Positions 3,430-32,975 of a stretch of 64,000 bases of DNA are shown here, piece after piece. Under the pieces are notes generated by a model, which was not told the origin of the DNA, did no database searches, and saw nothing but the letters and a program-made list of their open reading frames with translations. This stretch comes from Pararhizobium sp. IMCC3301. Its GTDB lineage: Bacteria > Pseudomonadota > Alphaproteobacteria > Rhizobiales > GCA-2746425. How positions within the stretch are numbered: position 1 is the first letter of the stretch; every line of letters starts with the position of its first letter. Position numbers and translations under genes: made by a program. Where the stretch lies: NCBI RefSeq assembly GCF_030758315.1, contig NZ_CP132336.1, positions 2,881,001 to 2,945,000 on the forward strand, given 5' to 3'.

Positions 3430-3432
3430 CGT

Positions 3433-4407: not shown

Positions 4408-4417
4408 CGCGGCCTCC

Positions 4418-5789: not shown

Positions 5790-7360
5790 TGTGCGGCCTT
5801 CGGGCGTTCAATGCCGGCCATCAGCATGCCGATTTCGCCTTCCGGTGTTTCCGGGGCGCACTCGCCGACAATACGGCCTGCAAACATCACCAGAACCCGG
5901 TCGGCCAGAGACCGGATTTCATCCAGCTCGACAGACACCAGCAGGATAGCCTTTCCCGCATCCCGCATTTCCACAATGCGCTTGTGGATGAATTCAATCG
6001 CGCCGATATCGACACCGCGCGTCGGCTGCCCGATGATCAGCACATCGGGGTCCTGTTCCATTTCCCGCGCCAGAACGATTTTCTGCTGGTTTCCTCCGGA
6101 AAAACTGGCGGTTTTGAGCCGGCAATTCGGTGGCCGGATATCATATTTCTCGATCTTCTCGGCGGCGTCCCGGCGCATTGCCGTGATGTCGAGGAAAGGT
6201 CCGTTTACATAGGGATCACGCGTCTGATAGCCCAGAATACTGTTTTCGTTTTCCTCAAATGGCAGCACAAGACCCATCTGGTGGCGGTCCTCGGGAACGT
6301 GCGCCATACCCTTTTCACGCAACAGCGCCGGGTCAGCTTTGCCGGTGACATGTATTGGTTCGCCTTTCAGCAGAACCCGCCCGCTCTTGGCCGGAAAGAT
6401 GCCGGAAATTGCCTCAAGCAGTTCCGACTGGCCATTGCCGGCAACGCCGGCAATGCCGACAATTTCCCCGGCGCGCACCTGGAAGGAAACATTATCGACC
6501 ATGATGACGCCGCGCTCGTCGCGCACCGTCAGGCCGTCCACCTCCAGCAGCACGTCTTGCGGCGCCGCAGGCGCTTTTTCCACATTCAGCAGCACACTGC
6601 GCCCGACCATCAATTCGGCCAGCTCCGCCAGACTTGTCTCAGCGGTGGTGACTGTTGCTACCATCTCGCCGCGGCGCATCACCGACACCGTGTCTGTAAT
6701 TGCCATGATCTCGCGCAGTTTGTGGGTGATCAGAATAATTGTCTTCCCCTGCTCTTTCAACTGCTCAAGAATGCGGAACAGATGGTCTGCTTCCGCAGGG
6801 GTCAAAACGCCGGTTGGCTCGTCGAGAATGAGAATATCAGCGCCGCGATACAGCGCCTTCAGGATTTCGACACGCTGCTGAAGCCCAACGGGAAGGTCTT
6901 CGATGATCGCATCGGGGTCCACATCGAGCTGATATTCTTCCTCCAGATGCTTCAGATCCTTGCGGGCTTTACCGATGGCTCCGGCCAGCACCGCACCGCC
7001 TTCGGCACCAAGTATGATATTTTCCAGCACTGAGAAATTTTCCACCAGCATGAAATGCTGATGCACCATGCCGATACCCGCGGAAATTGCGGCCTGGCTG
7101 TCCTTGATTGTGATCGGCTCGCCCTTGATCCGGAGTTCACCGGAATCGGCCTGATAAAAGCCGTAGATAATCGACATCAATGTGGATTTTCCAGCGCCGT
7201 TTTCACCGATAATGCCGTGGATCGACCCCTGTTCCACAGACAGGTTGATGTCCTTGTTGGCATGGACCGAACCGAAGCGCTTGTTGATCGCGATCAACTC
7301 GATGGCACGCGGAGCGGTTTCCGCAGAGGCGGCCTGGGGATTGGATGGGGTCTGTGACAT
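5786..7360 (-). CDS. Nucleoside ABC transporter ATP-binding protein (two ABC domains)
   Basis: A 524-residue cytoplasmic ATPase with tandem ABC domains, like YufO and sugar importers of the RbsA class. Domain 1 has Walker A GENGAGKSTL, an LPVGLQQRVEIL signature region and Walker B LILDEPTGVL. Domain 2 has a degenerate Walker A (GVAGNGQSEL, lacking the Lys) and an intact-looking FSGGNQQKIVLARE signature. One canonical and one degenerate site is usual for this class. It powers the two adjacent permeases. It lies 64 bp downstream of the binding-protein gene, separated from it by a strong hairpin terminator. Confidence 0.93.
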   Translation of the reverse strand: MSQTPSNPQAASAETAPRAIELIAINKRFGSVHANKDINLSVEQGSIHGIIGENGAGKSTLMSIIYGFYQADSGELRIKGEPITIKDSQAAISAGIGMVHQHFMLVENFSVLENIILGAEGGAVLAGAIGKARKDLKHLEEEYQLDVDPDAIIEDLPVGLQQRVEILKALYRGADILILDEPTGVLTPAEADHLFRILEQLKEQGKTIILITHKLREIMAITDTVSVMRRGEMVATVTTAETSLAELAELMVGRSVLLNVEKAPAAPQDVLLEVDGLTVRDERGVIMVDNVSFQVRAGEIVGIAGVAGNGQSELLEAISGIFPAKSGRVLLKGEPIHVTGKADPALLREKGMAHVPEDRHQMGLVLPFEENENSILGYQTRDPYVNGPFLDITAMRRDAAEKIEKYDIRPPNCRLKTASFSGGNQQKIVLAREMEQDPDVLIIGQPTRGVDIGAIEFIHKRIVEMRDAGKAILLVSVELDEIRSLADRVLVMFAGRIVGECAPETPEGEIGMLMAGIERPKAAQ

Positions 7361-7387
7361 GACTGTTAAATTACAGGCAAATGTAAA

Positions 7388-7414
7388 AAACCCCCGCGCC
7401 TGGCGCGGGGGTTT
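7388..7414 (-). terminator. Rho-independent terminator/attenuator between bmp and the ABC genes
   Basis: AAACCCCCGCGCC at 7388-7400 is exactly complementary to GGCGCGGGGGTTT at 7402-7414. Read on the minus strand, the GC-rich stem is followed by a run of six T (7385-7390). It lies just after the binding-protein stop and before the ATPase start. It would therefore cut most transcripts after the binding-protein gene, giving the usual excess of binding protein over membrane components. Confidence 0.85.
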
Positions 7415-7424
7415 CTGACACTGC

Positions 7425-8423
7425 CTACATCACAGGGCAGGAATCGCTGGTGTTGTAATCATGCACAGCAACTTTGCCGGCGATGATATCCGCCCTGGCC
7501 TGATCGACCGCCTGTTTCATCTCCTCGGTAATCAAGGACTCGTTGTTTTCATCAAGTGCCCAGCCGACACCGTCTTCTTCCAGACCCACCGCAACGAAGC
7601 CGGTCGCAAAGTCATTGTTCTTGCCATCCATGAAGGCATCATAGACAGCCACATCAACGCGCTTCAGCATGGATGTCAGAATGCTGCCGGGATGCATATA
7701 ATTCTGATTGCTGTCCACACCGATTGAGAACTTGCCTTCATCAGCGGCTTTCTGCAACACACCGACGCCGGTACCGCCTGCTGCCGCATAGACAACATCC
7801 GCACCGGCATCGATCTGCGCTTTGGTAATCTCTGCGCCCTTCACAGGATCATTCCAGGCAGCCGGGGTTTCACCAGTCATGTTCTGGATAATTTTGGCAT
7901 CGGGATTCGCAGCTTTCACGCCCTGGACATATCCACAGGCAAAGTTGCGGATCAATGGAATATCCATTCCGCCAACAAATCCGACTGTGCCGGTTTGCGA
8001 TTTCATACCCGCCAGCAGACCGACCAGAAATGATCCTTCATGTGCCTTGAAGACAACAGAGCGCACATTCGGCTGATCAACCACTTCGTCGATAATGGCG
8101 AATTTCAGATCAGGAAATTCGGCTGAAACCTTGTTCATTGCTTCAGCCTGGGTAAAGCCCATCACCACAATGGGATTGTAACCCCGGCGCGCAAAATTGC
8201 GCAGCGCCTGTTCACGCTGGGAGGCATTGGTGATTTCAAACTCACCATATTCGATGCCCGTGTCTGCCTTGAATTTTTCCGCGCCATTATAGGCCGCTTC
8301 ATTGAACGATTTGTCGAACTTGCCGCCCATATCGAAGATCAAGGCAGGTTTGAATTCCTGTGCAAAGGCTGTCGTCGCCATCATCGCTGCGGCAGCCAAA
8401 GTCGCAAAGAGTTTGAGTTTCAT
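7425..8423 (-). CDS. BMP-family nucleoside-binding protein of the ABC importer
   Basis: About 332 residues from the chosen start MKLKLFATLAAAAMMATTAFA, a clean signal peptide with an AFA-Q cleavage site. The upstream in-frame ATG at 8468 would add 15 residues before the signal and is unlikely; GAGAG lies seven bases before the chosen ATG. The mature protein shows the BMP (PnrA-like) family pattern: ALIFDMGGKFDKSFNEAAYNG, GFTQAEAMNKV, VGFVGGMDIP, and YAAAGGTGVGV. There is no lipobox cysteine, so it should be a free periplasmic protein rather than a lipoprotein. It is the first gene of the nucleoside locus. Confidence 0.93.
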   Translation of the reverse strand: MKLKLFATLAAAAMMATTAFAQEFKPALIFDMGGKFDKSFNEAAYNGAEKFKADTGIEYGEFEITNASQREQALRNFARRGYNPIVVMGFTQAEAMNKVSAEFPDLKFAIIDEVVDQPNVRSVVFKAHEGSFLVGLLAGMKSQTGTVGFVGGMDIPLIRNFACGYVQGVKAANPDAKIIQNMTGETPAAWNDPVKGAEITKAQIDAGADVVYAAAGGTGVGVLQKAADEGKFSIGVDSNQNYMHPGSILTSMLKRVDVAVYDAFMDGKNNDFATGFVAVGLEEDGVGWALDENNESLITEEMKQAVDQARADIIAGKVAVHDYNTSDSCPVM

Positions 8424-8450
8424 AACAATGCTCTCTTGTTTCGGCTTTCG

Positions 8451-8475
8451 GTCCACTGGACACAGCATCTGATGC
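8451..8475. promoter_or_regulatory. Two short palindromes upstream of the nucleoside operon
   Basis: GTCCACTGGAC (8451-8461) and GCATCTGATGC (8465-8475) are each perfect 5+1+5 palindromes, side by side, 28-52 bp upstream of the bmp start. They may be operators for a nucleoside-responsive regulator. Short palindromes also arise by chance, and no regulator gene is nearby, so this is a weak call. Confidence 0.25.
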
Positions 8476-8686
8476 GTCTCAAAGGTCCGTCAGCGCTTGG
8501 TTTCTCCAATAAAAGTGTAGTCAGCTTTGCACGGCTTTCGAAAATTTGCATCGCTTTTTTTATAAAGACGTGGTCATTTGGAAAATCGGAGACAGGCACC
8601 TTGGACGCCGGTGCAGGCCTGTGCACGCTTGGTCACCGTCATCGGGCGAAAATTGCGCCACAGGCGAACCAGAAGTGGAATTGGAC

Positions 8687-9115
8687 ATGATTGTGCGGCC
8701 GGCAAGGGCAAGACTGGCTTTGATTGCTCATGATGAGAAAAAAGACGCTCTGGTGGAATTTGCCAAGCGGCATCTGACAGCTTTGCAGCAGTTTGATATC
8801 GTCGCGACCGGCACGACCGGCACCAGATTGCTCAAAGCCTGCCCGGCATTGTCCGTCACGCCAATGCGCAGCGGCCCGCTGGGCGGCGATCAGCAGATCG
8901 GTGCCATGATTGCCGAGGGCAAGATACAGGGCCTGATTTTCTTCATCGATCCCCTGACGCCAATGCCTCATGATGTGGATGTCAAGGCGTTGATGCGCCT
9001 CGCCGTCGTCTATGATGTGGCAACGGCGTTGAATGAAGCGACTGCCGAGTTGCTGATTGCGGATCCCTCACGTCTGACCAACCCGTGCAAGCCGGCTCAG
9101 GAAAGTGTCTCATGA
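8687..9115 (+). CDS. mgsA: Methylglyoxal synthase
   Basis: A 142-residue enzyme converting dihydroxyacetone phosphate to methylglyoxal and phosphate, a bypass of lower glycolysis. Family motifs are present: [11 protein letters not shown] at the N-terminus, TGTTGTRL (phosphate binding), [12 protein letters not shown], and [14 protein letters not shown] containing the catalytic Asp/His set. The ATG at 8687 gives the usual family length; upstream in-frame codons encode nothing conserved. It is followed by glucokinase on the same strand about 130 bp later, consistent with a sugar-phosphate theme. Confidence 0.92.
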
Positions 9116-9243
9116 CAGAATTCAAATTGCCGTCTTGACGGGCATCCATCAAAACCATTCGCCCATTATCTGCCTCTCGCAGTTGACGGTCCAGGCGCTT
9201 TTTGGTTTGTGTTCTGCACAGTTGAAACGAATAAGTTAGCGCC

Positions 9244-10275
9244 ATGACCACGTCAGTCCAAAGTCACGAAAATCTTCCCTATCCGGTCCTTGTCGCAGAT
9301 ATTGGCGGGACCAATGCACGCTTTGGTATACTCACCGATGCCCATGCGGAACTGAAAGAATTCCAGACCGCCAAGACTGCCGATTATGCCGGCCTTGAAG
9401 AGGCGGCGGAAGCTATGGTTCTGTCCCGCACCGCCACCACGCCCCGCTCTGCGGTTCTGGCAGTGGCAGGTCCGATCAGCGGCGATGAAGTTCCCCTGAC
9501 CAATTGTCATTGGGTGATCCGCCCCCACGCGCTGATGCAAGCGCTGCAGCTCGACGAAGTTGTTCTGGTCAATGATTTTGAAGCCCAGTCTCTGGCACTG
9601 CCTTCGCTGCGAGACGACGATCTTGAACTGATCGGCGATGTCGAGATGGCTTCCACCGGAACCAAGGTCGTGGTCGGACCGGGAACCGGGCTCGGTGCGG
9701 CGGGCATGATTCATACCGGAGCGCTTTGGGTGCCGGTGCCCGGCGAGGGTGGTCATATTGATCTGGGCCCCGTCACCGAAGATGAATTTGCGCTGTGGCC
9801 GCATTTTGAAAAAGAGCATGGCCGTATTTCCGCCGAGGCGCTGTTATGCGGTCGCGGTCTGGTGCGGCTCTATAAAGGCGTCGCCAGCTGGCGCAACCGG
9901 CCGGTCACATTCGATGGCCCCAGCGAGATCACCTCAGCGGCTCTTGCCGGGTCCGACGAGACAGCAAAGGAATCGCTGGATATTTTCTGCAGATTGCTTG
10001 GTCGTGTCGCCGGAAATCTCGCCATTGCCTTCATGGCAACCGGCGGTGTCTATCTGGCCGGCGGCATTTCCAAAAAGATCGCCGGTTTTCTCGCTGAATC
10101 CGATTTCCGCGCTGCCTTTATTGCCAAAGCGCCGCATGAGGAGTTGATGAACACCATGGCAACCGCCGTCATCACCCATGAAAAGCCGGCGCTTTTGGGA
10201 TTGGCCGCTTTTGCCCGCACACCGCAATTATTCGGCGTTGATCTGAATGGTAGGCGCTGGCACAACGGCGAATAG
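9244..10275 (+). CDS. glk: Glucokinase
   Basis: A 343-residue cytosolic ROK-unrelated glucokinase (Glk family) that phosphorylates glucose with ATP. Visible motifs are LVADIGGTNARFGI (phosphate-1 site), VLAVAGPISGDEVPLTN, VNDFEAQ (catalytic Asp region) and GPGTGLGAAGM, then GGVYLAGGISKK near the C-terminus. The TAG stop coincides with the first bases of a TAGATTGTTTCATG motif that resembles the dispersed repeat ends seen elsewhere in the window. It converges with hrpB, 42 bp away. Confidence 0.93.
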   Translation: MTTSVQSHENLPYPVLVADIGGTNARFGILTDAHAELKEFQTAKTADYAGLEEAAEAMVLSRTATTPRSAVLAVAGPISGDEVPLTNCHWVIRPHALMQALQLDEVVLVNDFEAQSLALPSLRDDDLELIGDVEMASTGTKVVVGPGTGLGAAGMIHTGALWVPVPGEGGHIDLGPVTEDEFALWPHFEKEHGRISAEALLCGRGLVRLYKGVASWRNRPVTFDGPSEITSAALAGSDETAKESLDIFCRLLGRVAGNLAIAFMATGGVYLAGGISKKIAGFLAESDFRAAFIAKAPHEELMNTMATAVITHEKPALLGLAAFARTPQLFGVDLNGRRWHNGE

Positions 10276-10286
10276 ATTGTTTCATG
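10273..10286. repeat. Possible terminus of the dispersed TAGAGCGTTTCATG repeat
   Basis: TAGATTGTTTCATG matches the end of the repeats at 4418-4694 and 46674-46835 at most positions and overlaps the glk stop codon. Only one end is recognisable, so this may be a decayed copy. Confidence 0.3.
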
Positions 10287-10317
10287 AAATGCGCTCGGCC
10301 GAAGCAAGGCATGCACG

Positions 10318-12732
10318 TTACGCCTTGCCGGCAGGGTTTTCCGGCCAGTCATGTTTGGGATAGCGGCCGCGCATTTCGGCGCGCACATCGCGCCATGACC
10401 CTTTCCAGAAGGCAGGCAGGTTTTGGGTGATCTGAATGCTGCGCCGTGCCGGAGACAGCAGATCCAGAATCAGCGGAACATGACCGGCAATGGCCGGATG
10501 TTCATCAAGACCGAAAAAATCCTGCACCCGGGCCCGCAGCACCGGTCCGTTTTCATCGCTGTAGTCAATTGCCACACTGCGATTGCCGGGCAGCTGAAAC
10601 CGCTCTGGTGCCAAGGTGTCGATCTGGTGGATTTGCGGCGTGCGAAATTTCAGCGCGCCGATGATCGCATCTTGCGTCAGATCGGACAGCGCCACAGCAC
10701 CGGGCACAAATGGCCGCAGCCAGGTTTCAAGTGTAGTTCCCAGAGTGCTGCGGCTGGTATCCGGCCATGGAGCGCCAATGGCGCGGTGAAGGAATTGCAG
10801 ACGCTGCATCAGCGCATTTGCCTTCGGTGAAAAAACAATTGCATCGATGCCGCGCTCCGCTATTGCCTGCCACAGCACAGCTTCCGCCTTTGACCTGTCG
10901 AACTGCTTCAGGGGTCTGCGCTCCAGAACCAGCGCGCCGAGCCGGGTCACACGCTCTGCCTTCACCCGCGCATCGGCAGCGTTATAGCTCAGTAATTCTT
11001 CAGCGACCGAATGCCGGTCGGCATGCGCGGCAAAACTTGTTGCGTCCAGCGCAGCGGCTGACAGCAGCCGCAGATTGCCCGCTTCACCCATCATGTCGGC
11101 GACCACCAGATAAGGCTCGCCGGCAATCGGATGATCGGTGGAGACGGCCACTCTTTGCCCGGCGGCAAGCTGAAACTGTCCGCCGCCGCGGGTGATCGCC
11201 ACCCATTGTGGAAATGCGATCAGCAGCAAAGCGCCAATTTCGTCGCGTGGCAGTGTCGGGCCTCTGGCGGAAATCGACAGCAGCCGGCAGAGACGCTCGA
11301 AGCTTTGCTTCACCGTGCCTTCTGCGCGCGCGGCTGCGCGGCTGTACAACACACCCAGATCAGGCTCGCGCTGGCGCTGGGTATCGCTCAGCAGCGCCGC
11401 CACCAGCAGCGCGCTCCGCAATTCGGTTGCGCCGCGCTCTGACGCCTTCAGCACCATCGCGCCCAGATGCGGATCAAGCGGCAGTGCCTGCAGGCGACGC
11501 CCGAGTGGCGTGATGTGATTGGCCTTTGTCAGCGCGCCGAATGATCTCAGCTGGCTTTGCGCTGCGGCAAATTTGCCGCTCGCCGGATAATCCAGAAATG
11601 CCAGCTGCTTTGGATCGGACACTCCCCATTCTGCCAGATCCAGGGCAAATCGCGTCAAATTCGCTTCCAGAAGTTCAGGCTGATCCTGCGCCTCCAGCGT
11701 GCGCATCCACTGCTCCGGCCAGAGCCGGTAACACACTCCCGGCTCGGTCCGCCCGGCGCGTCCGGCACGCTGGTCCGCTGCCGCCTTGCTGACAAATACG
11801 GTTTCCAGGCGCGATACGCCGGTTTGCGGGTTGAAGCGGGGACGGCGGGACAGGCCGCCATCGACAACCACGCGAACCCCCTCAATGGTCATCGAGGTCT
11901 GGGCAAGGTTGGTGGACAACACGATTTTGCGCTTGCCCGCCGGTGCTGGCTGCAGCGCGGCAATTTGGGCCTTTTGCGGCAGGCCGGCATAAAGTGGTGC
12001 AATCAGGACAGTCGGGTCTTCGCCAAGAGCATCCTGAAGCTGACGGCGCGCCGCTTCAATTTCGCTGCGGCCGGGCAGGAACACCAGCACGCTGCCGCTT
12101 TGCTGCTTGAGCGCCAACAGCACCGCATCCACAATTTGCGGCACGATCATCCGGCGCGGGTGTCGCGGCAGATAATGCATCTCGATCGGAAAGCCGCGCC
12201 CGCTCGATGCAATCACCGGCGCATCATCCATGATCGCGGACACCGCCTTTGCATCAATCGTCGCCGACAGCACCATCAGCTTCAGATCGTCGCGCAAAGC
12301 GGCCTGCACATCGAGCGCCAGAGCCAGGCCAAGATCGGCGTCGAGCGAGCGCTCATGAAATTCGTCAAACAGCACGGCAGCGATGCCTGGCAGTGTTGTA
12401 TCGTCAAGGATCATCCGGGAGAACACGCCCTCCGTGACAACTTCCAAACGGGTCGCGGCGCTGACTCTGGTTTCCGCCCGCATCCGCAGGCCAACGGTCT
12501 GTCCGACCTCTTCACCGAGCAGGCTGGCCATGCGATGTGCAGCGGCGCGGGCCGCAATCCGGCGCGGTTCAAGCAGGATGATTTTGCCGCCCTTCAGCAC
12601 CGCCTCGTCCAACAGCCATAATGGCACCTGTGTAGTTTTACCGGCGCCCGGTTCAGCCACAAGCACCAGATTGGAATGCGCCCGGAACTGCGTCAGGAGT
12701 TCGGCCCTGACCGCCTCGATCGGCAGTGTCAT
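10318..12732 (-). CDS. hrpB: ATP-dependent RNA helicase HrpB
   Basis: An 804-residue DEAH/DExH-box helicase of the HrpB family, near the usual 800-830 residues. Motif I is VAEPGAGKTTQVPL (about residues 23-36), motif II is DEFHERSLDADL, motif III SAT is present, and motif VI QRAGRAGRTEPG is intact. The HA2 region and the bacterial HrpB C-terminal domain follow. Its cellular substrate is poorly known in this family. Its start overlaps the ynjD-like stop by four bases, but it is functionally unrelated to that transporter. Confidence 0.93.
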   Translation of the reverse strand: MTLPIEAVRAELLTQFRAHSNLVLVAEPGAGKTTQVPLWLLDEAVLKGGKIILLEPRRIAARAAAHRMASLLGEEVGQTVGLRMRAETRVSAATRLEVVTEGVFSRMILDDTTLPGIAAVLFDEFHERSLDADLGLALALDVQAALRDDLKLMVLSATIDAKAVSAIMDDAPVIASSGRGFPIEMHYLPRHPRRMIVPQIVDAVLLALKQQSGSVLVFLPGRSEIEAARRQLQDALGEDPTVLIAPLYAGLPQKAQIAALQPAPAGKRKIVLSTNLAQTSMTIEGVRVVVDGGLSRRPRFNPQTGVSRLETVFVSKAAADQRAGRAGRTEPGVCYRLWPEQWMRTLEAQDQPELLEANLTRFALDLAEWGVSDPKQLAFLDYPASGKFAAAQSQLRSFGALTKANHITPLGRRLQALPLDPHLGAMVLKASERGATELRSALLVAALLSDTQRQREPDLGVLYSRAAARAEGTVKQSFERLCRLLSISARGPTLPRDEIGALLLIAFPQWVAITRGGGQFQLAAGQRVAVSTDHPIAGEPYLVVADMMGEAGNLRLLSAAALDATSFAAHADRHSVAEELLSYNAADARVKAERVTRLGALVLERRPLKQFDRSKAEAVLWQAIAERGIDAIVFSPKANALMQRLQFLHRAIGAPWPDTSRSTLGTTLETWLRPFVPGAVALSDLTQDAIIGALKFRTPQIHQIDTLAPERFQLPGNRSVAIDYSDENGPVLRARVQDFFGLDEHPAIAGHVPLILDLLSPARRSIQITQNLPAFWKGSWRDVRAEMRGRYPKHDWPENPAGKA

Positions 12733-18679: not shown

Positions 18680-18755
18680 GCCGCTTTAGCTCAGTTGGTA
18701 GAGCACATCATTCGTAATGATGGGGTCGTAGGTTCGAATCCTATAAGCGGCACCA
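18680..18755 (+). tRNA. tRNA-Thr (anticodon CGU)
   Basis: A 76-nt cloverleaf including encoded CCA. The acceptor arm GCCGCTT (18680-18686) pairs with AAGCGGC (18745-18751), the D-arm contains AGCTCAGTTGGTAGAGC, the anticodon loop reads TTCGTAA, and the T-arm contains GGTTCGAATCC. The anticodon CGU reads ACG threonine codons. The gene lies at the left boundary of the accessory region. Confidence 0.97.
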
Positions 18756-21638: not shown

Positions 21639-22055
21639 ATGACAGCAAGAAAACCGAGACCGGTCATGGCTTAGAACAGGTATCCCGTAGTTGATTTGTT
21701 TGCGGGACCAGGCGGGCTGGGCGAAGGGTTTGCGTCCCTGGAGGACGAATCGGGACGCCCTCGGTTTGAGAGCGCCGCCTCAATTGAACGCGATCAATTT
21801 TCTTTCAGAACGCTCCATTTGCGACATTTTCTTCGTACATTTCAGCATGGCTTTCCCGAGGAATATTACCGGAGCCTCAAGGGTGAATTGGCTCTGGAAG
21901 AACTTTATGGTCTCTTTCCAGAGAACCGGACACATACCGATGAAACAGCACTTCAGATTTTACTCGGACCCGAAAATCATGAAAATGTGCGATCTCTCAT
22001 TGGAACGAGACTCGAGAGCAAATCCGAATGGGCGTTGGTCAGATCGCATGGATAG
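21639..22055 (+). pseudogene. Truncated DNA (cytosine-5) methyltransferase
   Basis: From the ATG at 21639 the frame runs eleven codons, hits a TAG at 21672-21674, then continues NRYPVVDLFAGPGGLGEGFASL, the SAM-binding motif I of C5 methyltransferases. The next segment (IERDQFSFRTLHLRHFLRTF) fits motif II and the region after it. The frame stops at 22055 just where the catalytic PCQ motif IV would be expected, and no PCQ or later motifs are found downstream. It is therefore a dead N-terminal remnant of a restriction-modification or solitary methyltransferase gene, sitting immediately before the fusion gene at 22270. Confidence 0.75.
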
Positions 22056-22269: not shown

Positions 22270-25191
22270 ATGAGTAAATTGTTACCTTCAGATTACGAAA
22301 TAACTATTCTTCACATTTCAGACGCTCACTTTGGGTCACCCGATGAAAAAGGTGAACAAGATCGCCTCACAAATTCATTGATTACGAGCGCGCATGATCA
22401 TGGATGGGAGCCAGAACTACTGGTTTTCAGCGGAGACCTTTCCTTCTCAGGGACTGGAGAAGAATTCGAAAAAGGACAGGATTGGCTACTACGGTTACTC
22501 TCGAAATGGCCTAACTGTAAGCTATTTATCGTACCTGGAAATCATGATGTCACGCGAAATGCAGCACTGTTACATCTCCGCCGAGCCTTTGAGGACGCGG
22601 AAAAATTTAACAGTATTCGCAACGAGATTCAGACTAGGCACCCGCACCTCGAGAATTTCTTCAACTGGCACAAAGAACTCAGAGACGAAATTGGAGATCG
22701 GGTAGTATCGAATTGGAATGAAAATCCATTCTGCACTCATAACGTACTCGATTTCCACGCGGCAAAAATTCGGCTTGTCGGACTGAATACTTCTCTTATG
22801 TCTTGCGATAGCGAAGATGAATTTAGCCTAGTCCAAGACATAAAATCTCTAAATGCTGCACTCGACAAACCTGAAGAAATACGGGACGAGTGCGTAATCG
22901 CGGTTGGGCACCATCCTCTGTCTTGGCTAATAGACTGGAATTCAAGCGAAGTCGACCGATTGTTGAACCAATCCATTGGGGCTCACGTCTATCTTCACGG
23001 CCACAACCACAACCAAACGCTGCAATCAATCTCAAAGGGGAGCGGTGAAAGCTTGTCCACTCTGGAGTGTGGCGCAGCATATCAAGGTTCACAATGGCCT
23101 CAATTTTATGCATTCTATAAACTGGATTTCCTTAATCGCGAAATTAAAAGCGCGGTAATGTCTTATTCCCTTAGCACCGGACGCTGGCTGACAGATACAG
23201 CAAGGTCGCAGGAAATAGTATCGCAGTTGCCGCAACTACAAAGAAAAACTCGGAAAGTGAATTCCGTCGACGACGCGGAATCGGAACCAATTTCATACCC
23301 TCTAACCGAGCCAATTTCGCTCAATGGATCGAAGCCGTCGACTGTGGTTCCAGACGAACTGCGTCGACGAGTCGAGAAAGACATTGAGCGTTTAACACCC
23401 AATATTGATCAAGATGCAGAACGTGTCCGTACAGAAATTGCATCGTATATGCAGGCGCAGCTTGCAAATAAGGTTGACCTGTATCGGCATGCAGACAGAA
23501 TAAAGGCAAGAATAAGCCTGACCGACAAAATATGCCGGCAGATTATTTCGGGGAAGAAAGATTATACGGTATTGAATGTAGATGATGTCTGTGGTTTTAG
23601 ATTTGTTACTTTATTTCAGAGTGACTTGCCATTGTTGGCTAACGAACTCTTCAAGTCGGCTTACAACACAGGATCGGGCACCCTGTTTCGGCCAGCGACT
23701 GAAGCAAGAATAACAATTCATACATCGAGACCTGACGTTGATCCTCTCTCAGTAGTTCCGCACATAAAAGACAGTTTGAGAGAGTGGATTGGCCCAAGCC
23801 AGATCGAGATTAGGCAACGATCTACTTCATATTCGGCAGTTCATATTGTTTTGAGGCATATGATAAAACGCAGCGAATCTGATTTGGAAGGGATGCCGGT
23901 AGAGTTTCAACTTCGAAGCGGTCTTGAGGAGTTTTGGGCGCATGTCGACAGTCAGTTACGGTACGCGCTAAGCAAGGAGAAGGGTCGTGTTGCAGGAGAA
24001 GGCGGTTGGCATCAACACCTAAATGTTCTCAAAACGCAGTTCGACGGAATAATACAATACGTTGACTTGATTAAAGATATAGCATCAGGAAACGATTCCA
24101 ACAATCAACACTCCAATAAAAAACAATTCCAATCCGGGTGGACAGCTTATGATGAGAGCGCCCTAAGTCTTTCGAATGTTGACGAGCAAATCGCTAAGCT
24201 GAGTGAACTACCCGCTGATGTGTTTAACAGCGTCCGAAAGGCGTATGACTTATGGGAACAAGCTGACATTAGTCGTCAATTTGGGGGTGATGCAGCCCGA
24301 TTTCGTGAAGCCGCAAAAGCCTTTGAATCATTGTCGAACGGGCATTCTGAAGAAGTTTCCGATCTGACGCTTTTAGAGCTTCTTCGCAACATCGCCAAAC
24401 AAGAGCGTGCATATATGTTGCTCTGCGCTGGCTCAGAAAAGGATTTGAATACGGCACACCAAATTTACACTGATCTCTTGTCCGCCTGCCCGTCAGATAG
24501 CATTTTGCTTTTGAGAATGGGCCAGCTCATGATTGAACAGCAGGATCTTCAAAAAGGAATCGAGTACCTAGATCAAACAATTCATAATTTGGATAAACCA
24601 CCAATTCATGACGCCGATACCAATAATAGAATTCGCGACCTTGCGCTTCTTCGAAAGGGATTGGCGAATTTCCGTATATTTGAGAGTGGAGATTACGCAG
24701 AAAATGATCGTATCAAGGGTTTGGAAAATGCGATTTCGGATGCCTCAATAGTATACGAGGTTGGGAGAAATCAGGCTGTTAAGAAGCAAGCATTGAACGA
24801 TCTAGTTTATTATTCATGGGAAGAACGACATCAATCTGGATCACTCCGCTCCAAACCTAGCTTGAGTGACGAGGAGTACAAGCGTCTGGCGATTGAGTTG
24901 GTCAAATGTTACGAAAACACGGATATTCCTAGCTATCGTACTGCTGACACCCTAGCTCGAGTATGCGTTGATGTAGGCATGATGCATGAAGCCATGCGGG
25001 CTGCAACGGTCGTTTGCAACTTATTGGAAAAGGCTGCTAGCGAACGAAGCGGTGTACGAAAAGTGTTGGATAAGATTCGTTACTCGGATAGCTGGCTCGT
25101 CAGGGTGATGAAATGGCTCAACGATGTTGATGAAATAGACTCTTTACTATTTGCTCATAAAGTGGTGAATAATTATGCATCAGACAACTAA
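22270..25191 (+). CDS. Metallophosphoesterase - RelA/SpoT synthetase domain - TPR-like fusion protein
   Basis: A 973-residue soluble protein with no signal or membrane segment. Residues 8-300 are a calcineurin-like phosphoesterase with all metal-ligand blocks: SDAHFG (Asp18, His20), GDLSFSG (Asp56), GNHD (100-103), GHH (213-215) and HGHNH (243-247). Residues about 365-600 resemble the (p)ppGpp synthetase fold: RIKARISLTDK (Arg410, Lys412, Ser416, Lys420), DVCGFR (439-444), STSYSAVH (Tyr521, His525) and VEFQLRS (Glu545, Gln547) followed by FWAHVDSQLRY. Residues about 650-960 are helical with TPR-like spacing. A weak GGGG ribosome site precedes the ATG. The gene is visibly AT-richer than its neighbours, lies beside a methyltransferase relic and is followed by insertion sequences, suggesting transfer. 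Function is unknown; nucleotide-alarmone metabolism, possibly defence, is inferred. Confidence 0.88.
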   Translation: MSKLLPSDYEITILHISDAHFGSPDEKGEQDRLTNSLITSAHDHGWEPELLVFSGDLSFSGTGEEFEKGQDWLLRLLSKWPNCKLFIVPGNHDVTRNAALLHLRRAFEDAEKFNSIRNEIQTRHPHLENFFNWHKELRDEIGDRVVSNWNENPFCTHNVLDFHAAKIRLVGLNTSLMSCDSEDEFSLVQDIKSLNAALDKPEEIRDECVIAVGHHPLSWLIDWNSSEVDRLLNQSIGAHVYLHGHNHNQTLQSISKGSGESLSTLECGAAYQGSQWPQFYAFYKLDFLNREIKSAVMSYSLSTGRWLTDTARSQEIVSQLPQLQRKTRKVNSVDDAESEPISYPLTEPISLNGSKPSTVVPDELRRRVEKDIERLTPNIDQDAERVRTEIASYMQAQLANKVDLYRHADRIKARISLTDKICRQIISGKKDYTVLNVDDVCGFRFVTLFQSDLPLLANELFKSAYNTGSGTLFRPATEARITIHTSRPDVDPLSVVPHIKDSLREWIGPSQIEIRQRSTSYSAVHIVLRHMIKRSESDLEGMPVEFQLRSGLEEFWAHVDSQLRYALSKEKGRVAGEGGWHQHLNVLKTQFDGIIQYVDLIKDIASGNDSNNQHSNKKQFQSGWTAYDESALSLSNVDEQIAKLSELPADVFNSVRKAYDLWEQADISRQFGGDAARFREAAKAFESLSNGHSEEVSDLTLLELLRNIAKQERAYMLLCAGSEKDLNTAHQIYTDLLSACPSDSILLLRMGQLMIEQQDLQKGIEYLDQTIHNLDKPPIHDADTNNRIRDLALLRKGLANFRIFESGDYAENDRIKGLENAISDASIVYEVGRNQAVKKQALNDLVYYSWEERHQSGSLRSKPSLSDEEYKRLAIELVKCYENTDIPSYRTADTLARVCVDVGMMHEAMRAATVVCNLLEKAASERSGVRKVLDKIRYSDSWLVRVMKWLNDVDEIDSLLFAHKVVNNYASDN

Positions 25192-25438: not shown

Positions 25439-26128
25439 TGACCTGCCCCCATTAGAGTCAGCTGTCATGATTTCGCTCTGTTCAGGTTTTGGTCTTTCTT
25501 TGACCGATTAGCATATTCCCGCGGTGTCATGCCAGCTAGCCCAGAATTCGGGCGATGTTGGTTGAAGTCGGTGCGCCATGCCGCCACTAAATTTTGGGCA
25601 TGGTGCAAGTTGTCAAACAGGTGTTTTTTCAAAAGTTTGTCCCGCATCCGGCCATTGAAAGATTTAACAAAGCCGTTTTGCATCGGTTTTCCGGGGACGA
25701 TGTAGTGCCATTCGACCTTGCATCTTCTTACCATTGCAGGATCGCGTTAGACGTCAACTCGGTGCCATTGTCGCCGACCTCCAAACTGGGATACCCTCGT
25801 ATCTCAGCAATCCGGTCTAGTTCCCGCGTCACGCGTATACCTGACAGTGACGTATCAACAACTGCAGCCAGACGTTCTCTGCTGAAGTCGTGGATGACGT
25901 TCAGAATTCGGAAGCTTCTGCCGCAAGACAGGCTGTTAGATACGAAGTCCAAGCTCCATCGTTGGTTTTGCCCCTGCGGGATCGTCATAGGCGTTCTGGT
26001 GCTCAAGGCACGCTTCCTTCCGCCACGTTTGCGTACGGTGAGCCCTTCCTCTTTGTAAATCCTATTCAGCTTCTACCAATTCGCCTGCCAGCCTTCGCGC
26101 TTCAGCAGAAAGTGCAGCCGGCGATATC
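25439..26128 (-). pseudogene. Degenerate IS3-family (IS407-like) element with broken transposase orfB
   Basis: TGACCTGCCCCC at 25439-25450 looks like an IS3-family terminus. The minus strand then encodes, in two frames that change near 25730, the rve integrase core of an IS3 orfB: QRWSLDFVSNSLSCGRSFRI (first Asp), LEVGDNGTELTSNAILQW (second Asp), then GKPMQNGFVKSFNGRMRD (catalytic Glu block region) and PREYANRS at the end. A stop interrupts the upstream part near 26080. The 5' half and orfA are missing because the next element begins at 26129. It is inactive. Confidence 0.82.
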
Positions 26129-26199
26129 TGAGCTGCTGCTGGTTTTGTGGACGGCAACTTAAGCTTTCATCGCTCTCTCCTCGTATTTCATAGGGCTTA

Positions 26200-27360
26200 T
26201 ACCAACATCAGCAAATTCTGACTCAGGTGGGATTCCCAAGGCTCTGATTTTGTGATTCATCATGGCAAAGGAGATTTGCCATGCCTACTGCCATACCGCT
26301 TCGCTGTGATTTTGATGCTCCTACTCTGCGCCGGCTTGCGCGTCGATGTCGTGACAACCGTCAGATACGCCGGTTGCTTGCGTTGGCCGCTGTGTACGAA
26401 GGTATGAACCGGACAGATGCGGCGCGGATTGGCGGGATGGATCGTCAAACGCTGCGCGATTGGGTGCATCGCTTCAACGAAGATGGCCCTGATGGATTGA
26501 CCAACCGCTCAGGAGCCGGACGCCCTCGTTTGCTGAGCGATGAGCAAATGCTGGAACTGGCGCAGATTGTCGAAACGGGACCAGAGCGAAAGATAAATGG
26601 TGTTGTGCGGTGGCGGCGCATTGATCTGGTTCGGATGATCAGCGAACGGTTCGGGGTAATGTGCTCTCAAAGCGTCGTCTCCGATTATCTGGCTGAGCTC
26701 GGCTTTTCCCATATCTCAGGCCGTCCGCAGCATCCTGCTCAAAATCCGCAGGTGATCGAGGCTTTCAAAAAAACTTCGCCAATACGCTCGCAGCCCACAT
26801 AGCCGACCTGCCGGAGGGCACTCCAGTTGAGGTGTGGTTCCAGGACGAAGCTCGTATTGGACAAAAGAACGGACGCGTCCGTATCTGGGCGAAGAAAGGA
26901 ACTCGACCACGCCTGCCTGCCGACCAGCGTTACCAGAACACCTACCTGTTCGGTGCCATTTGTCCCAAGCGCGGAACAGGTGCGGCTTTGGTCCTGCCCT
27001 CCGCCAATACCGAAGCGATGCAATTGCACCTCGATGAGATCAGCAAATATGTCGCCCGCAAGGCCCATGCAGTGGTGCTGATGGATCGCGCAGGCTGGCA
27101 CACGACAAGCAAACTCAACGTACCCAAAAACATCACCATCATCTTGCTGCCGTCAAAGTCGCCAGAGCTGAACCCGGTCGAAAACATCTGGCAATACCTT
27201 CGGGCAAACTGGCTCTCAAACTGCGTCTTCAAAGACTACACCGCTATCGTCGATGCAGCATGCGATGCATGGAACAATCTCATCCATCATCCAGAAGTCA
27301 TCACATCAATCGGAATGAGAAACTGGGCTCATGTGGGTCAGTGATTTCTGACTTTGGTAT
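26200..27360 (+). mobile_element. IS630-family insertion sequence
   Basis: About 1.16 kb, bounded by inverted ends TACCAACATCAG (26200-26211) and, complemented, ATACCAAAGTCAG (27348-27360), and flanked by TA on both sides (26198-26199 and 27361-27362), the TA target typical of IS630. Removing it precisely restores the IS3 orfB reading frame. The transposase reads on the plus strand. Confidence 0.88.
26281..27344 (+). CDS. IS630-family transposase, probably made by -1 frameshifting
   Basis: Two overlapping frames. The first (ATG 26281, running to 26802) carries the HTH region DAARIGGMDRQTLRDWVHRF. The second carries the DDE domain: VEVWFQDEARIGQKNG (first Asp), AVVLMDRAGWH (second Asp) and LPSKSPELNPVENIWQYLR (Glu). 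An A7 run at 26767-26773 followed by C lets a -1 slip after Lys-Lys continue as Asn-Phe-Ala-Asn into the second frame, giving about 354 residues, the normal family length. A deletion that disabled it would look the same, but an A-run at this boundary is common in IS630 elements. Confidence 0.85.
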
Positions 27361-28215
27361 TAGATATCCGATGGTCGAGTGGCGCCGTGTCGGATTGTAG
27401 AAACGCTCGATGTAATCAAAGACGTCTGCAAGGGCTTGATCGCGTGCTCTGTAGACTTTGCGCTTCACCCGCTCGATCTTGAGCGATGAGGAGAAGCTTT
27501 CCATCGCGGCGTTATCCCAGACGTTCCCGGAACGGCTCATCGAACAGGTGACGCCATTGTCGGCCATCAGTCGCTGGAACGGTTCGCTGCTGTATTGGCT
27601 GCCCTGATCGGAGTGATGTAGCAACTCCTTTGGCCGCCCCCTGCGCCAGATTGCCATCATCAGGGCATCTGTGACCATCTGCGCTGTCATGGCATTCTTC
27701 ATTGACCAACCAACAACGCGGCGTGAGAACAGATCGATGACGACCGCCACATAAAGCCAACCCTCAGCGGTCCAGATGTAAGTGAAGTCGGCAACCCATT
27801 TCTGGTTCGGTGCGGCCGCCCCGAACTCCCGTTCAAGCACGTTTGGGGCGACGATGGATCGCTTTCCCTGATCCTTGGGAAGCTGGCGACGCCTCGGCCG
27901 CGCCCTGAGGGCGTTCAGTTGCATCAGCCGTTTAATGCCATGGAGGCCGCATTCAAAGCCCTCAGCAAGGACGTCATGCCAAACGCGGCGCGCGCCATAA
28001 GTCCGATCAGATCGGACAAAGCTTGCCCGCACCACAGCGCCGAGCATCTCATCCTTACGGGCCCGCGCACTTTGTGGTCGTATCAGCCACGCGTGGAAAC
28101 CGCTTCGAGACACACCGAGCGCGTCACACATCCAACTGACCGGCCAAACCCCTCGGTGTTTCGCGACGAACCCAAACATCACAGTTGGTCCCTGGCGAAG
28201 TAGGCTGCGGCCTTC

Positions 28216-29586
28216 CTAAGAAACAGACATCTCAGTCTCATTGGTCAACGCTTGCAAATCATAGCCGAGCGACTTTGCTCTTCGCTTAAGATTGCCGAGG
28301 ACGCGGCTGCGATATCGTTCTTCATAGTGCGACGCGCCTGGGTCCTGATAGGTCATGCCGTGCCGCAAGGTATTGTAGAACAAGACGGCGATCTTTCGAG
28401 CGGTGGCTGTGACTGCTTTTGCTTTGCCTGCCCGTGCAGCCAAGCGACGATAGAAGGCACCCAGAGCAGTATCGCTGCGTCCGATCGTGACGGCAGCCAG
28501 TCGGAGTAAGGCGGCAGCGCGGCTGGAGGATCGCCTCGTGCGCGATGACAGTATTTTACCGCCCGATATCTTGTTGCCCGGTGCCAGACAGAGCCACGAT
28601 GTGAAGTGCTTTGCGCTTGGCCAGGCGCGCAGATCAGTCCCACATTCACCAACCAGTTTGAGGGACAGGGACGGCCCCAACCCATGGATTTGGGTCAGAT
28701 CGATCCCGAGGACGCCAAAGAGTGCAGCACGTACATCGAAGGAGGGCGTGCCCACCTGCTTGGTCTTGGTTCGTACGCGTGGCAATTGACTGGCGTCATG
28801 ATTCTGATCAGCAGCCAGAACGCCCAGCACGGCTTCAAGGTTGCGATCACACTCGAGCATCTTGGCCTTATAATAGTCGTAGAGGTCCAACGACTGGGTA
28901 AGGGCGAAGATGTGCTCTGGTCGGTCATTCCCGTTCAGTGCCGCTTTGATCGTTTCGACAGAGGCATGGCACCGGACGTCCCGATAGGAGGCCAGCACAT
29001 CCAGGTCCCGCTCGCCCGCAACGATGGCGCGGATGATCCGTATCCCTGTCACGCCGGTGATGTCTGACACGACATGGTGCAGCTGCAGATTCATCTCCAT
29101 CAACGCCTTTTGCATGTGCTGGATGTGGGCCGCCGCATATTCGACCAAGCGCTCTCGCTGGCGCAGGTAAGCCCGCAGGGTAGCAATCTGGGCGGATGGT
29201 CTGAAGCTACCGCGTAAAAGGCCATAGGAGTGAAGCTGTCGCAGCCAACTGGCGTCGCTGACATCCGTCTTTCGGCCCGGCACGTTCTTAGCGTACCGGG
29301 CGTTCACCAGAATAACCTCAAAGCCATGCTGCTCGAGAATCTCGTAGGCCGGGATCCAATACACTCCTGTAGATTCCATTGCGATGCTGGTGACACCGTG
29401 GGATTTGAACCAAGCCGCCAAATCATGCAGATCGTGCGTGAAGGTTCCAAACGCCCGAACCGGCATATCTGCTACGTCAGGGTTCACGGCTGCCATGTGC
29501 ATCCTTGAACCGATGTCGATGGCAGCAGCGCCAGTGTTCACAGTCTCAATTGCGGGGTTCTTTCGGGTCGTCTTTCTGGCCATCAT
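28216..29586 (-). CDS. IS110-family DEDD transposase (copy 1)
   Basis: 456 residues. The N-terminal RuvC-like DEDD domain is visible: AAIDIGSRMHMAAV (Asp), IAMESTGVYW (Glu) and GRKTDVSDASWL (Asp pair), followed by a coiled region and the C-terminal Tnp_20 domain with IHGLGPSLSLKLVGECG and APGNKISGGKILSSRTRR (conserved Ser region). AACAGGAGG precedes the ATG at a good ribosome-binding distance. The protein sequence is identical to the second copy. Such recombinases act with an element-encoded bridge RNA. Confidence 0.95.
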   Translation of the reverse strand: MMARKTTRKNPAIETVNTGAAAIDIGSRMHMAAVNPDVADMPVRAFGTFTHDLHDLAAWFKSHGVTSIAMESTGVYWIPAYEILEQHGFEVILVNARYAKNVPGRKTDVSDASWLRQLHSYGLLRGSFRPSAQIATLRAYLRQRERLVEYAAAHIQHMQKALMEMNLQLHHVVSDITGVTGIRIIRAIVAGERDLDVLASYRDVRCHASVETIKAALNGNDRPEHIFALTQSLDLYDYYKAKMLECDRNLEAVLGVLAADQNHDASQLPRVRTKTKQVGTPSFDVRAALFGVLGIDLTQIHGLGPSLSLKLVGECGTDLRAWPSAKHFTSWLCLAPGNKISGGKILSSRTRRSSSRAAALLRLAAVTIGRSDTALGAFYRRLAARAGKAKAVTATARKIAVLFYNTLRHGMTYQDPGASHYEERYRSRVLGNLKRRAKSLGYDLQALTNETEMSVS

Positions 29587-29829
29587 CTATCCTCCTGTTG
29601 GCAGCAGAAGGGCGTGGGCTATGCAAATCCGTCATCTTCCTAATCGGGATCACCGCAGCGCGGCGTCACCACTCTCAAGTTCGCATCAACCCATGGGCCA
29701 CGTTTTTTAACGGGGTCCCCGACATAGGCGGGGCCTCCAATAAGCTAACGGCCGCTACCCTCCATCGCACAACGGTAGCACAGGCTGTTTCTACCGCGCA
29801 CAGGCGGGCCCCAACCCGGGACGGTTTTT
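29587..29829 (-). ncRNA. Putative bridge-RNA region of IS110 copy 1
   Basis: The 243-bp 5' non-coding part of the element, where IS110-group elements encode their bridge RNA. On the minus strand it contains a stem of the GGCCCCGCC...GGGGACC type around 29715-29740 and further GC-rich inverted segments. The same sequence is present at 31202-31444 in copy 2. Assignment rests on position and family knowledge; the folded loops were not computed. Confidence 0.5.
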
Positions 29830-29830
29830 C

Positions 29831-31201
29831 CTAAGAAACAGACATCTCAGTCTCATTGGTCAACGCTTGCAAATCATAGCCGAGCGACTTTGCTCTTCGC
29901 TTAAGATTGCCGAGGACGCGGCTGCGATATCGTTCTTCATAGTGCGACGCGCCTGGGTCCTGATAGGTCATGCCGTGCCGCAAGGTATTGTAGAACAAGA
30001 CGGCGATCTTTCGAGCGGTGGCTGTGACTGCTTTTGCTTTGCCTGCCCGTGCAGCCAAGCGACGATAGAAGGCACCCAGAGCAGTATCGCTGCGTCCGAT
30101 CGTGACGGCAGCCAGTCGGAGTAAGGCGGCAGCGCGGCTGGAGGATCGCCTCGTGCGCGATGACAGTATTTTACCGCCCGATATCTTGTTGCCCGGTGCC
30201 AGACAGAGCCACGATGTGAAGTGCTTTGCGCTTGGCCAGGCGCGCAGATCAGTCCCACATTCACCAACCAGTTTGAGGGACAGGGACGGCCCCAACCCAT
30301 GGATTTGGGTCAGATCGATCCCGAGGACGCCAAAGAGTGCAGCACGTACATCGAAGGAGGGCGTGCCCACCTGCTTGGTCTTGGTTCGTACGCGTGGCAA
30401 TTGACTGGCGTCATGATTCTGATCAGCAGCCAGAACGCCCAGCACGGCTTCAAGGTTGCGATCACACTCGAGCATCTTGGCCTTATAATAGTCGTAGAGG
30501 TCCAACGACTGGGTAAGGGCGAAGATGTGCTCTGGTCGGTCATTCCCGTTCAGTGCCGCTTTGATCGTTTCGACAGAGGCATGGCACCGGACGTCCCGAT
30601 AGGAGGCCAGCACATCCAGGTCCCGCTCGCCCGCAACGATGGCGCGGATGATCCGTATCCCTGTCACGCCGGTGATGTCTGACACGACATGGTGCAGCTG
30701 CAGATTCATCTCCATCAACGCCTTTTGCATGTGCTGGATGTGGGCCGCCGCATATTCGACCAAGCGCTCTCGCTGGCGCAGGTAAGCCCGCAGGGTAGCA
30801 ATCTGGGCGGATGGTCTGAAGCTACCGCGTAAAAGGCCATAGGAGTGAAGCTGTCGCAGCCAACTGGCGTCGCTGACATCCGTCTTTCGGCCCGGCACGT
30901 TCTTAGCGTACCGGGCGTTCACCAGAATAACCTCAAAGCCATGCTGCTCGAGAATCTCGTAGGCCGGGATCCAATACACTCCTGTAGATTCCATTGCGAT
31001 GCTGGTGACACCGTGGGATTTGAACCAAGCCGCCAAATCATGCAGATCGTGCGTGAAGGTTCCAAACGCCCGAACCGGCATATCTGCTACGTCAGGGTTC
31101 ACGGCTGCCATGTGCATCCTTGAACCGATGTCGATGGCAGCAGCGCCAGTGTTCACAGTCTCAATTGCGGGGTTCTTTCGGGTCGTCTTTCTGGCCATCA
31201 T
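29831..31201 (-). CDS. IS110-family DEDD transposase (copy 2)
   Basis: A 456-residue protein identical to that of copy 1, with the same AGGAGG ribosome-binding site and 243-bp upstream region (31202-31444). In this copy the upstream flank is the IS3 orfA remnant, whereas copy 1 has the 3' end of copy 2 upstream, so only copy 1 carries an end-to-end element junction in front of it. Confidence 0.95.
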   Translation of the reverse strand: MMARKTTRKNPAIETVNTGAAAIDIGSRMHMAAVNPDVADMPVRAFGTFTHDLHDLAAWFKSHGVTSIAMESTGVYWIPAYEILEQHGFEVILVNARYAKNVPGRKTDVSDASWLRQLHSYGLLRGSFRPSAQIATLRAYLRQRERLVEYAAAHIQHMQKALMEMNLQLHHVVSDITGVTGIRIIRAIVAGERDLDVLASYRDVRCHASVETIKAALNGNDRPEHIFALTQSLDLYDYYKAKMLECDRNLEAVLGVLAADQNHDASQLPRVRTKTKQVGTPSFDVRAALFGVLGIDLTQIHGLGPSLSLKLVGECGTDLRAWPSAKHFTSWLCLAPGNKISGGKILSSRTRRSSSRAAALLRLAAVTIGRSDTALGAFYRRLAARAGKAKAVTATARKIAVLFYNTLRHGMTYQDPGASHYEERYRSRVLGNLKRRAKSLGYDLQALTNETEMSVS

Positions 31202-31444
31202 CTATCCTCCTGTTGGCAGCAGAAGGGCGTGGGCTATGCAAATCCGTCATCTTCCTAATCGGGATCACCGCAGCGCGGCGTCACCACTCTCAAGTTCGCA
31301 TCAACCCATGGGCCACGTTTTTTAACGGGGTCCCCGACATAGGCGGGGCCTCCAATAAGCTAACGGCCGCTACCCTCCATCGCACAACGGTAGCACAGGC
31401 TGTTTCTACCGCGCACAGGCGGGCCCCAACCCGGGACGGTTTTT
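31202..31444 (-). ncRNA. Putative bridge-RNA region of IS110 copy 2
   Basis: Sequence-identical to 29587-29829; 5' non-coding part of the second IS110 copy. Same reasoning and limits as for the first copy. Confidence 0.45.
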
Positions 31445-31743
31445 TAAGATATCGCGTTCCGCCTTCAGCTTTGCGACTTCACGCCTCAAGCTGCGGAGCT
31501 CTTCGTCATCCGGCTTTAACTGACCTTTGCCCGGGAAGGCATCTGGGCCACTTGATCCAAACTCGCGCACCCATCTGCGCAGCACTGTCGCATGCACATC
31601 CAGATCTCTGGCAGCCTGTGCAACGCTCACACCGCGCATCGTCACAAGTTGCGCAGCTTCGCGTTTATACTCACGGCTGTAAACTCTTCTCGTCATCGCT
31701 GATCTGAACCGCCCCGGGTTTGCCGGAGGCTGTTTGGTTTAAA

Positions 31744-32649
31744 TTATGCGGCCATGGCAGGTTCGTCCAGCATTGTGTAGTAGCGTTTTTCTGCCTCGGC
31801 CGGCGGGATGTTGCCGATGGGTTCCAGCAGGCGGCGGTTATTGAACCAGTCGACCCATTCCAGCGTTGCAAACTCGACGGCTTCAAAGTTGCGCCAGGGG
31901 CCACACCGGTGAATCACCTCGGCCTTGTAGAGACCGTTGATGGTCTCGGCCAATGCATTGTCATATGAATCTCCGACGCTGCCGACGGATGGCTCAATAC
32001 CAGCCTCTGCCAGACGCTCTGTATACCTTATCGATACATATTGACTGCCCCTGTCACTGTGATGGACAAGACCTCCCCGATGAACGGGCCGGCGCTCATG
32101 CAGTGCCTGTTCCAAGGCATCGAGGACGAAACCTGTATCGGCCGTGCGCGAGACACGCCAGCCGACGATGTAGCGGGCATAAACGTCGATGACGAAGGCG
32201 ACGTAGACAAACCCTTTCCAGGTGGTGACATAGGTAAAGTCGGAAACCCACAGCATGTTTGGTCCTGGCGCGTGGAATTGCCGGTTGACGTGATCAAGCG
32301 GACAAGGTGCGGCTTTGTTGCTGATCGTGGTTCGCACGGGTTTGCCGCGGATAACCCCCTGCAACCCCATTCTTCCCATCAACCTTGCCACCGTGCAGCG
32401 GGCAACATCAAAACCCTCCCGCTGCATTTGCCGCCACACCTTGCGCACGCCATAGACGCCAAAGTTGTCGTCAAACACACGCCTGACTTCGCCTTGCAAA
32501 TCCCGGTCACGCTTGGCACGGGCCGACAAATGGGCAGGATCCCGTCGCTTCGCCGCATGCAGATGGAAGGTGGAGGGGGCAATCGGCAATACCTTGCAGA
32601 TCGGCTCGACCCCGTATGCACCGCGATGTTCGTCGATAAACGCGATCAT
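31744..32649 (-). CDS. IS3-family transposase OrfB
   Basis: 301 residues: HTH_21 region ([20 protein letters not shown]), then the rve integrase core with [14 protein letters not shown] (first Asp), [15 protein letters not shown] (second Asp) and [15 protein letters not shown] (Glu), ending [20 protein letters not shown]. Its ATG overlaps the orfA stop by four bases (ATGA), so coupled translation or a frameshift with orfA is likely. Confidence 0.94.
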
Positions 32650-32975
32650 CGTCTGAACGGGCGGTCGAGCTCCGCCTGGGCAAAATATGCGGACGCCTTG
32701 CGCAATATCTCGTTGGCCTGCCTCAGTTCCCGAACCTCCCGCTCAAGAGCCTTGACCTTGTCAGCCATATCGGTGGGAACGCCGGCACGCTGACCGCTGT
32801 CCACCTCAACCCTCTTTACCCATTCATTCAGCGTCTGCGGCACACAGCCGATCTTCTGGGATATCGAGACAATCGCTGCCCAGCGTGACGGGTGATCGCC
32901 TTCGTGATCCAGTACCATACGCACCGCACGGGCACGTACTTCAGATGAAAATTTGTTCGTTGTCTTGCTTGTCAT
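32646..32975 (-). CDS. IS3-family transposase OrfA
   Basis: 109 residues with an N-terminal HTH ([20 protein letters not shown], ...[20 protein letters not shown]) and a C-terminal leucine-zipper helix ([20 protein letters not shown]) ending [18 protein letters not shown]. It is the DNA-binding partner of OrfB in the same element. Confidence 0.93.

Follow-up and report, generated by a model that had tools for sequence, protein, structure and literature searches.

An accessory protein joining a metallophosphoesterase, a RelA/SpoT-type synthetase and a TPR superhelix as a candidate anti-phage defence enzyme

A single intact gene in the genome of Pararhizobium sp. IMCC3301 encodes a 973-aa protein in which a calcineurin-like metallophosphoesterase (MPE), a RelA/SpoT-type synthetase (SYNTH) and a TPR superhelix follow one another in that order. 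It is proposed that the product is an accessory one-protein defence enzyme that has moved horizontally and is most likely directed against phages, in which the TPR arm controls an alarmone-type synthetase and the MPE acts as a second effector; we put the probability of this reading at roughly one half. The proposal draws on the observed domain make-up, catalytic residues and family ties of the protein, on the varying N-terminus of its relatives, on the patchy occurrence and low G+C content of the genes, and on the mobile or defence settings in which some of them lie.

The window, that is, the whole stretch of 64,000 nucleotides that was analysed, corresponds to bases 2881001-2945000 of a genome of 4.58 Mb in a single contig, and the gene occupies 22270..25191 on its forward strand. 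The MPE domain (residues 9-327; 22294..23250, + strand) is connected by a linker (residues 328-372; 23251..23385, + strand), which is of low confidence up to residue 358 (pLDDT <50 in residues 309-358), to the synthetase domain (residues 373-608; 23386..24093, + strand), and the TPR superhelix takes up residues 647-973 (24208..25188, + strand). In the Pfam scan of the protein, Metallophos matched residues 12-248 (E 3.2e-13), RelA_SpoT matched residues 410-567 just over its cut-off (E 2.8e-6; 22.6 bits and under the cut-off in a six-frame scan), and the TPR matches were weak; no HD hydrolase, TGS or ACT regulator or NACHT match appeared at E <= 1, and no caspase domain was found. The full AF2 model is of modest confidence (mean pLDDT 61.9, pTM 0.50), with only four sequences in its input. 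An earlier note on this DNA had claimed a metallophosphoesterase, a synthetase and a TPR-like tail on one chain, with complete catalytic motifs. Three real domains are indeed present, and neither catalytic site is degenerate: both residue sets are there, and 23 of 23 motif residues checked are as stated, although the GNHD motif placed at residues 100-103 in the note actually lies at 90-93, ten positions lower. A structure check of residues 365-600, where a missing synthetase fold would have spoken against the note, located that fold at about 373-608.

The expected metal ligands of the MPE are D18, H20, D56, N91, H92, H214, H243 and H245; the ligand and catalytic roles assigned to residues of the MPE and of the synthetase are those generally known for the two folds. 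The domain is nearest to the DS-8/DS-9 anti-phage phosphoesterases. Its best NCBIfam matches were DS8_antiphage (E 6.2e-31) and DS9_1_antiphage (E 3.6e-12) and its best PADLOC match was PDC-S60 (E 5.3e-34), all of them local to residues 11-328, the N-terminal third of the protein, and the NCBIfam ones far under their whole-family cut-offs; thus the DS-8 profile NF053861 covers residues 15-328 with 107 bits against a cut-off of 790. NF053861 is likewise matched (E 5.1e-31) by the protein of L021, a full-architecture relative from a Hyphomonadaceae MAG that is 33% identical to the window protein over its length. Six viral-contig loci matched a two-sequence MPE profile, five of them with proteins of 1011-1185 aa that carry NTPase-type matches behind the MPE (four over the Pfam cut-off; one, L087, only below it, but spanning positions 6-997 of the DS8 profile), the sixth, L088, having no such match. 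MPEs of this group thus often sit before switch modules, a place that SYNTH-TPR occupies in the window protein. DS-8 and DS-9 are described as protecting against phages, a protection abolished by mutating the predicted MPE catalytic residues, and the substrate of their MPEs is described as not known (PMC13092281). DS-8 (MPE-NACHT; DefensePredictor, PMC13092281; NF053861) and the window protein are both single large MPE-first proteins, with homologous N-terminal MPEs of SMPDL3A-like fold; DS-8 differs in carrying a NACHT switch where the window protein carries a RelA/SpoT synthetase and TPR. Two of the viral-contig genes have features of their own: that of L086 (5992-9549) fuses an MPE to a NACHT NTPase, with an FGE-sulfatase (SUMF1) domain at the C-terminus, and the L088 protein (5503-7008) has an N-terminal extension of about 165 residues, receiver-like by eye and without a Pfam family, its gene adjoining a 1553-aa ORF.

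SYNTH-TPR is a family of its own. Its N-terminal partner varies: among 16 core genes, 13 have none (one of these, L046, being a frame of only 458 aa close to the end of its contig), two have an MPE (the window gene and L021) and one has an EACC1-type caspase (L045/L004). The caspase of L045 matches the NCBIfam family 'caspase, EACC1-associated type' (E 3.9e-22; 78.8 bits, under the cut-off of 140), and the 130-aa gene directly upstream of it has no family match. With its caspase before SYNTH-TPR and its small upstream gene, L045 has by eye a layout like that of the EACC1-caspase two-gene system described by Kaur et al. 2020 (PMC7159879), from which the window protein differs in having no caspase. 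RelA-type and calcineurin-type domains are named among the parts of EACC1-type systems in that paper (PMC7159879), so these ingredients are known separately. In a tree of the 16 genes, from which the 240-aa frame of G810 and the 645-aa frame of an additional G911 copy were left out, the MPE forms fall within a supported seven-row group (98/97) and the caspase form falls outside it; because the tree leaves the order of the window gene, L021 and L022 unsettled and its end branches are long (median 1.01), the claim taken from it is limited to this placement, which implies that the N-terminal partner was probably acquired or lost on more than one occasion.

The family is thinly spread. A whole-protein search of 397 genomes of the same order (E <= 1e-5) found the core in three genomes besides the window's, 13 others being matched over the MPE only. 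With a core profile (E <= 1e-12), the window's own genome was the sole hit among 385 genomes of the class, which leaves association statistics thin, and ten genomes besides it were hit among 398 of the phylum, five at E 1e-53 or better and five more weakly. The core occurs in one of five genomes of the window's family, namely its own, all four other same-genus genomes lacking the gene; in the class of G795 (1/78) and the family of G336 (1/15) the only carrier is again the named genome itself, and in the class of G840 the count is 10/48, nine of these being already in the phylum-wide set. Further members came from genome contigs (L021) and from a plasmid search (L020). No close relative of the whole protein was found in 50,697 phage records, and in plasmids 22 of 72,556 records gave only partial matches that all stayed below 80% coverage. 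No matches came from scanning genome and viral contigs with the window protein as a single query, from searching viral contigs with SYNTH-TPR or SYNTH profiles, or from searching phages with the caspase form and L023; against plasmids, the caspase form matched only a Cupriavidus record, the proteins of L020 and L021 matched 5 and 13 records, respectively, and that of L049 matched 15, all partially and over the SYNTH end.

The varying front end bears on the suggestion of the earlier note that the MPE is a built-in antidote, hydrolysing the product of SYNTH so that the protein would be a self-limiting alarmone switch, a look-alike of the long RSH enzymes with an MPE for the HD hydrolase. Rel is ordered as hydrolase, synthetase and C-terminal regulator. 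The window protein shares this order with the long RSH (Rel/SpoT), which have an HD hydrolase and TGS/ACT where it has an MPE and TPR, and both it and L021 retain, apart from S416, the motif residues of MPE and SYNTH, as such a switch would call for. Hydrolase antidotes of toxSAS also exist, ATfaRel being described as a small alarmone hydrolase of this kind (PMC11782079). The core, however, is usually without an MPE and once has a caspase in its place, which weakens the antidote reading: a profile search of the ORFs at the 13 loci with a bare core, with flanks of 0.4-9.9 kb a side, found no MPE of the window's group on the chain or nearby. The profile recovered 7/7 control proteins, all members of its own alignment, and its scope was this MPE group alone. 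Moreover, the closest MPE families are defence proteins, and DS-8/DS-9 need their MPE residues for defence. We know of no MPE of the DS-8/DS-9-like group that has been shown to cut alarmones. An antidote role is thus conceivable but rather unlikely.

The composition and surroundings of the gene suggest that it was acquired. As the earlier note had it, the gene is AT-rich: at 45.0% G+C it is the lowest of the 50 non-overlapping ORFs of >=150 aa (at least 150 aa) in the window (median 57.4%), and all 16 core genes lie 6.7-23.1 points below the rest of their own locus. A low G+C content of this kind is a mark of transfer rather than of defence. The setting is also as claimed. Upstream lies a relic of a DrmMII-like DNA methyltransferase gene, an N-terminal piece (21696..22055, + strand; PADLOC DrmMII E 7.7e-8, profile positions 10-111 of 422; no Pfam match), and downstream lies a cluster of insertion-sequence transposases at 25465..32975 (unstranded), six of whose ORFs were examined with Pfam: an rve_3 fragment, a DDE_3 type, an IS3-like, two identical IS110-type and another IS3-like one. 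Positions 28213-31444 are a perfect 1617-bp tandem duplication of the IS110-type element, with its two identical 456-aa transposase genes. No empty insertion site was found in the four other same-genus genomes. The block lying beyond about 33.4 kb is conserved in all four, and the genes that precede the MPE gene, in so far as they were found in these genomes, lie elsewhere (tblastn rows of >45% identity in one comparison), so that the border of an insertion cannot be drawn. A tRNA-anchored island was considered and rejected: there is a tRNA-Thr at 18680-18755, but it is separated from the MPE gene by two ordinary genes and the methyltransferase fragment.

Relatives lie in settings of several kinds. 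On plasmid p1 of Cupriavidus necator (L020, 3675-19785), in an apparent defence island, a SYNTH-TPR gene stands between a ZacB-like gene (E 2.4e-7) and an Avs3a-like one (E 1.1e-185), the latter encoding an NTPase of 2171 aa. In L045 (G272, 327-11669), virion, tail-fibre, endolysin and Rz-like genes adjoin the caspase-SYNTH-TPR gene, on the opposite strand. The bare genes of L040, L041, L043, L044 and L023 and the MPE-bearing gene of L021 have ordinary chromosomal neighbours, in a reading by eye that excludes L046-L050 and covers L042 in part.

The housekeeping surroundings of several bare relatives, as judged by eye, would suit a stress-response alarmone enzyme of the DsRel/SAS-TPR kind, working outside defence, whose MPE trims nucleotides in ordinary regulation. 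A synthetase with a C-terminal TPR is the DsRel design, combining ppGpp synthesis with a TPR brake (PMC10434055). The nearest characterised SYNTH-TPR enzyme, Tde-SAS of T. denticola, is described as active in ppGpp synthesis and as held back by its TPR domain, its proposed role being the stringent response, not defence (PMC10434055). Like the window protein it has a motif-bearing RelA/SpoT synthetase followed by a TPR arm, a likeness of domain layout and motifs; Tde-SAS, however, is reported at 410 aa, with the catalytic domain first and a TPR of about 180 aa (PMC10434055), whereas the window protein begins with its MPE and has a TPR of about 330 aa, so that the two-domain layout is found in the bare relatives and not in it. 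The patchy, G+C-poor distribution tells against a role in ordinary regulation, as do the copies found next to prophage genes, on a plasmid and close to Avs3a, the absence of the gene from all four other genomes of the genus, and the separate long RSH (753-aa frame) that the host carries elsewhere; we regard this alternative, too, as improbable. The earlier note had spoken of a transferred defence gene. The gene is accessory and probably transferred, being G+C-poor and patchy, and defence would be its likeliest role; on the other side weigh the several relatives among ordinary genes and the window gene's own neighbours, which amount to one short methyltransferase fragment and insertion sequences.

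In the synthetase domain, R410, K412, K420, D439, R444, Y521, H525, E545, Q547 and R549 (window numbering) are invariant in 12 of 12 aligned relatives, the placement of R410, K412 and K420 depending on the alignment: they are invariant in A2, A4 and A5, and in the smaller A1 and A7 the window sequence is displaced by four residues at this point. In a ranking of solved structures by sequence match, the closest are RelP, RelQ and enzymes like them (E 3.6e-15 to 5.4e-10), far ahead of two 'RelA/SpoT family protein' chains (E 0.019), which we take to be CapRel. On the sole basis of this nearness to RelP/RelQ, (p)ppGpp or (p)ppApp is a likelier product than modified tRNA, and the toxSAS-type tRNA activity that the earlier note had entertained is not the first guess. 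A fused toxSAS of the CapRel kind, in which SYNTH pyrophosphorylates tRNA, the TPR arm is both antitoxin and phage sensor, and the MPE is incidental, is accordingly the least probable of the alternatives: the window protein resembles CapRel and other toxSAS in its RelA/SpoT fold, in its same-chain regulator and in its likely use in defence, and CapRelSJ46 is described as a single-chain anti-phage synthetase whose arm inhibits it and senses a phage capsid protein (PMC11782079), but the window synthetase appears by sequence nearer RelP/RelQ, the C-terminal arm is TPR in the predicted model, and an MPE is present as well. RelA-domain proteins were also seen on two other plasmids: Limnohabitans pTEGF4 (L093, 5001-6440), between the toxin-antitoxin genes HigB, PemK/MazF and VbhA-Fic, and Paracoccus sediminicola p6 (L094, 3728-4858), a small plasmid on which a type ISP restriction/modification enzyme is encoded as well.

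For the defence enzyme proposed here, the simplest model consists of a TPR sensor and brake, a SYNTH and an MPE effector, because Tde-SAS has a TPR brake, CapRel has its arm on the same chain and the MPE has ties to DS-8. We infer what would be sensed, made and cut, the order of events and the defensive function itself. Before infection, SYNTH would be restrained by the C-terminal TPR superhelix, the probable sensor and brake. A phage-made or phage-altered partner would bind the TPR arm and release SYNTH, which would then move pyrophosphate from ATP to form an alarmone-type nucleotide, (p)ppGpp or (p)ppApp being likelier than tRNA pyrophosphorylation, and this nucleotide would bring growth and phage production to a stop. 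The N-terminal MPE, a swappable second effector on SYNTH-TPR, would be switched on in the same event and would cut a nucleotide or another phosphoester. A more speculative extension, which we hold only tentatively, is that SYNTH-TPR is an immunity switch module replacing the STAND/NACHT NTPase, the phage-triggered alarmone both stalling the cell and acting in cis on the MPE or caspase; the nucleotide may then be the substrate or the activator of the MPE, giving a one-chain make-and-break signal.

Taken singly, the parts of the window protein are of known kinds; what may be new is their combination and the use of SYNTH-TPR as a module. Among the matches listed in the open-licence literature, none was by its title or the start of its abstract about an MPE-RelA/SpoT-TPR or caspase-RelA/SpoT-TPR protein, which is no proof of absence; the claim of a candidate undescribed architecture may be kept for MPE-SYNTH-TPR and is given up for SYNTH-TPR by itself, which is known from DsRel/SAS-TPR as described (PMC10434055). 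If the proposal is true, an alarmone synthetase with a TPR arm would be an interchangeable sensor-effector core of bacterial immunity, carrying an MPE or a caspase in front, and the chemistry of the stringent response would be linked to an NLR-like defence design. The window protein would also offer a one-protein system for seeking the substrate of the DS-8/DS-9 phosphoesterases, with the product of the attached synthetase as the first candidate.
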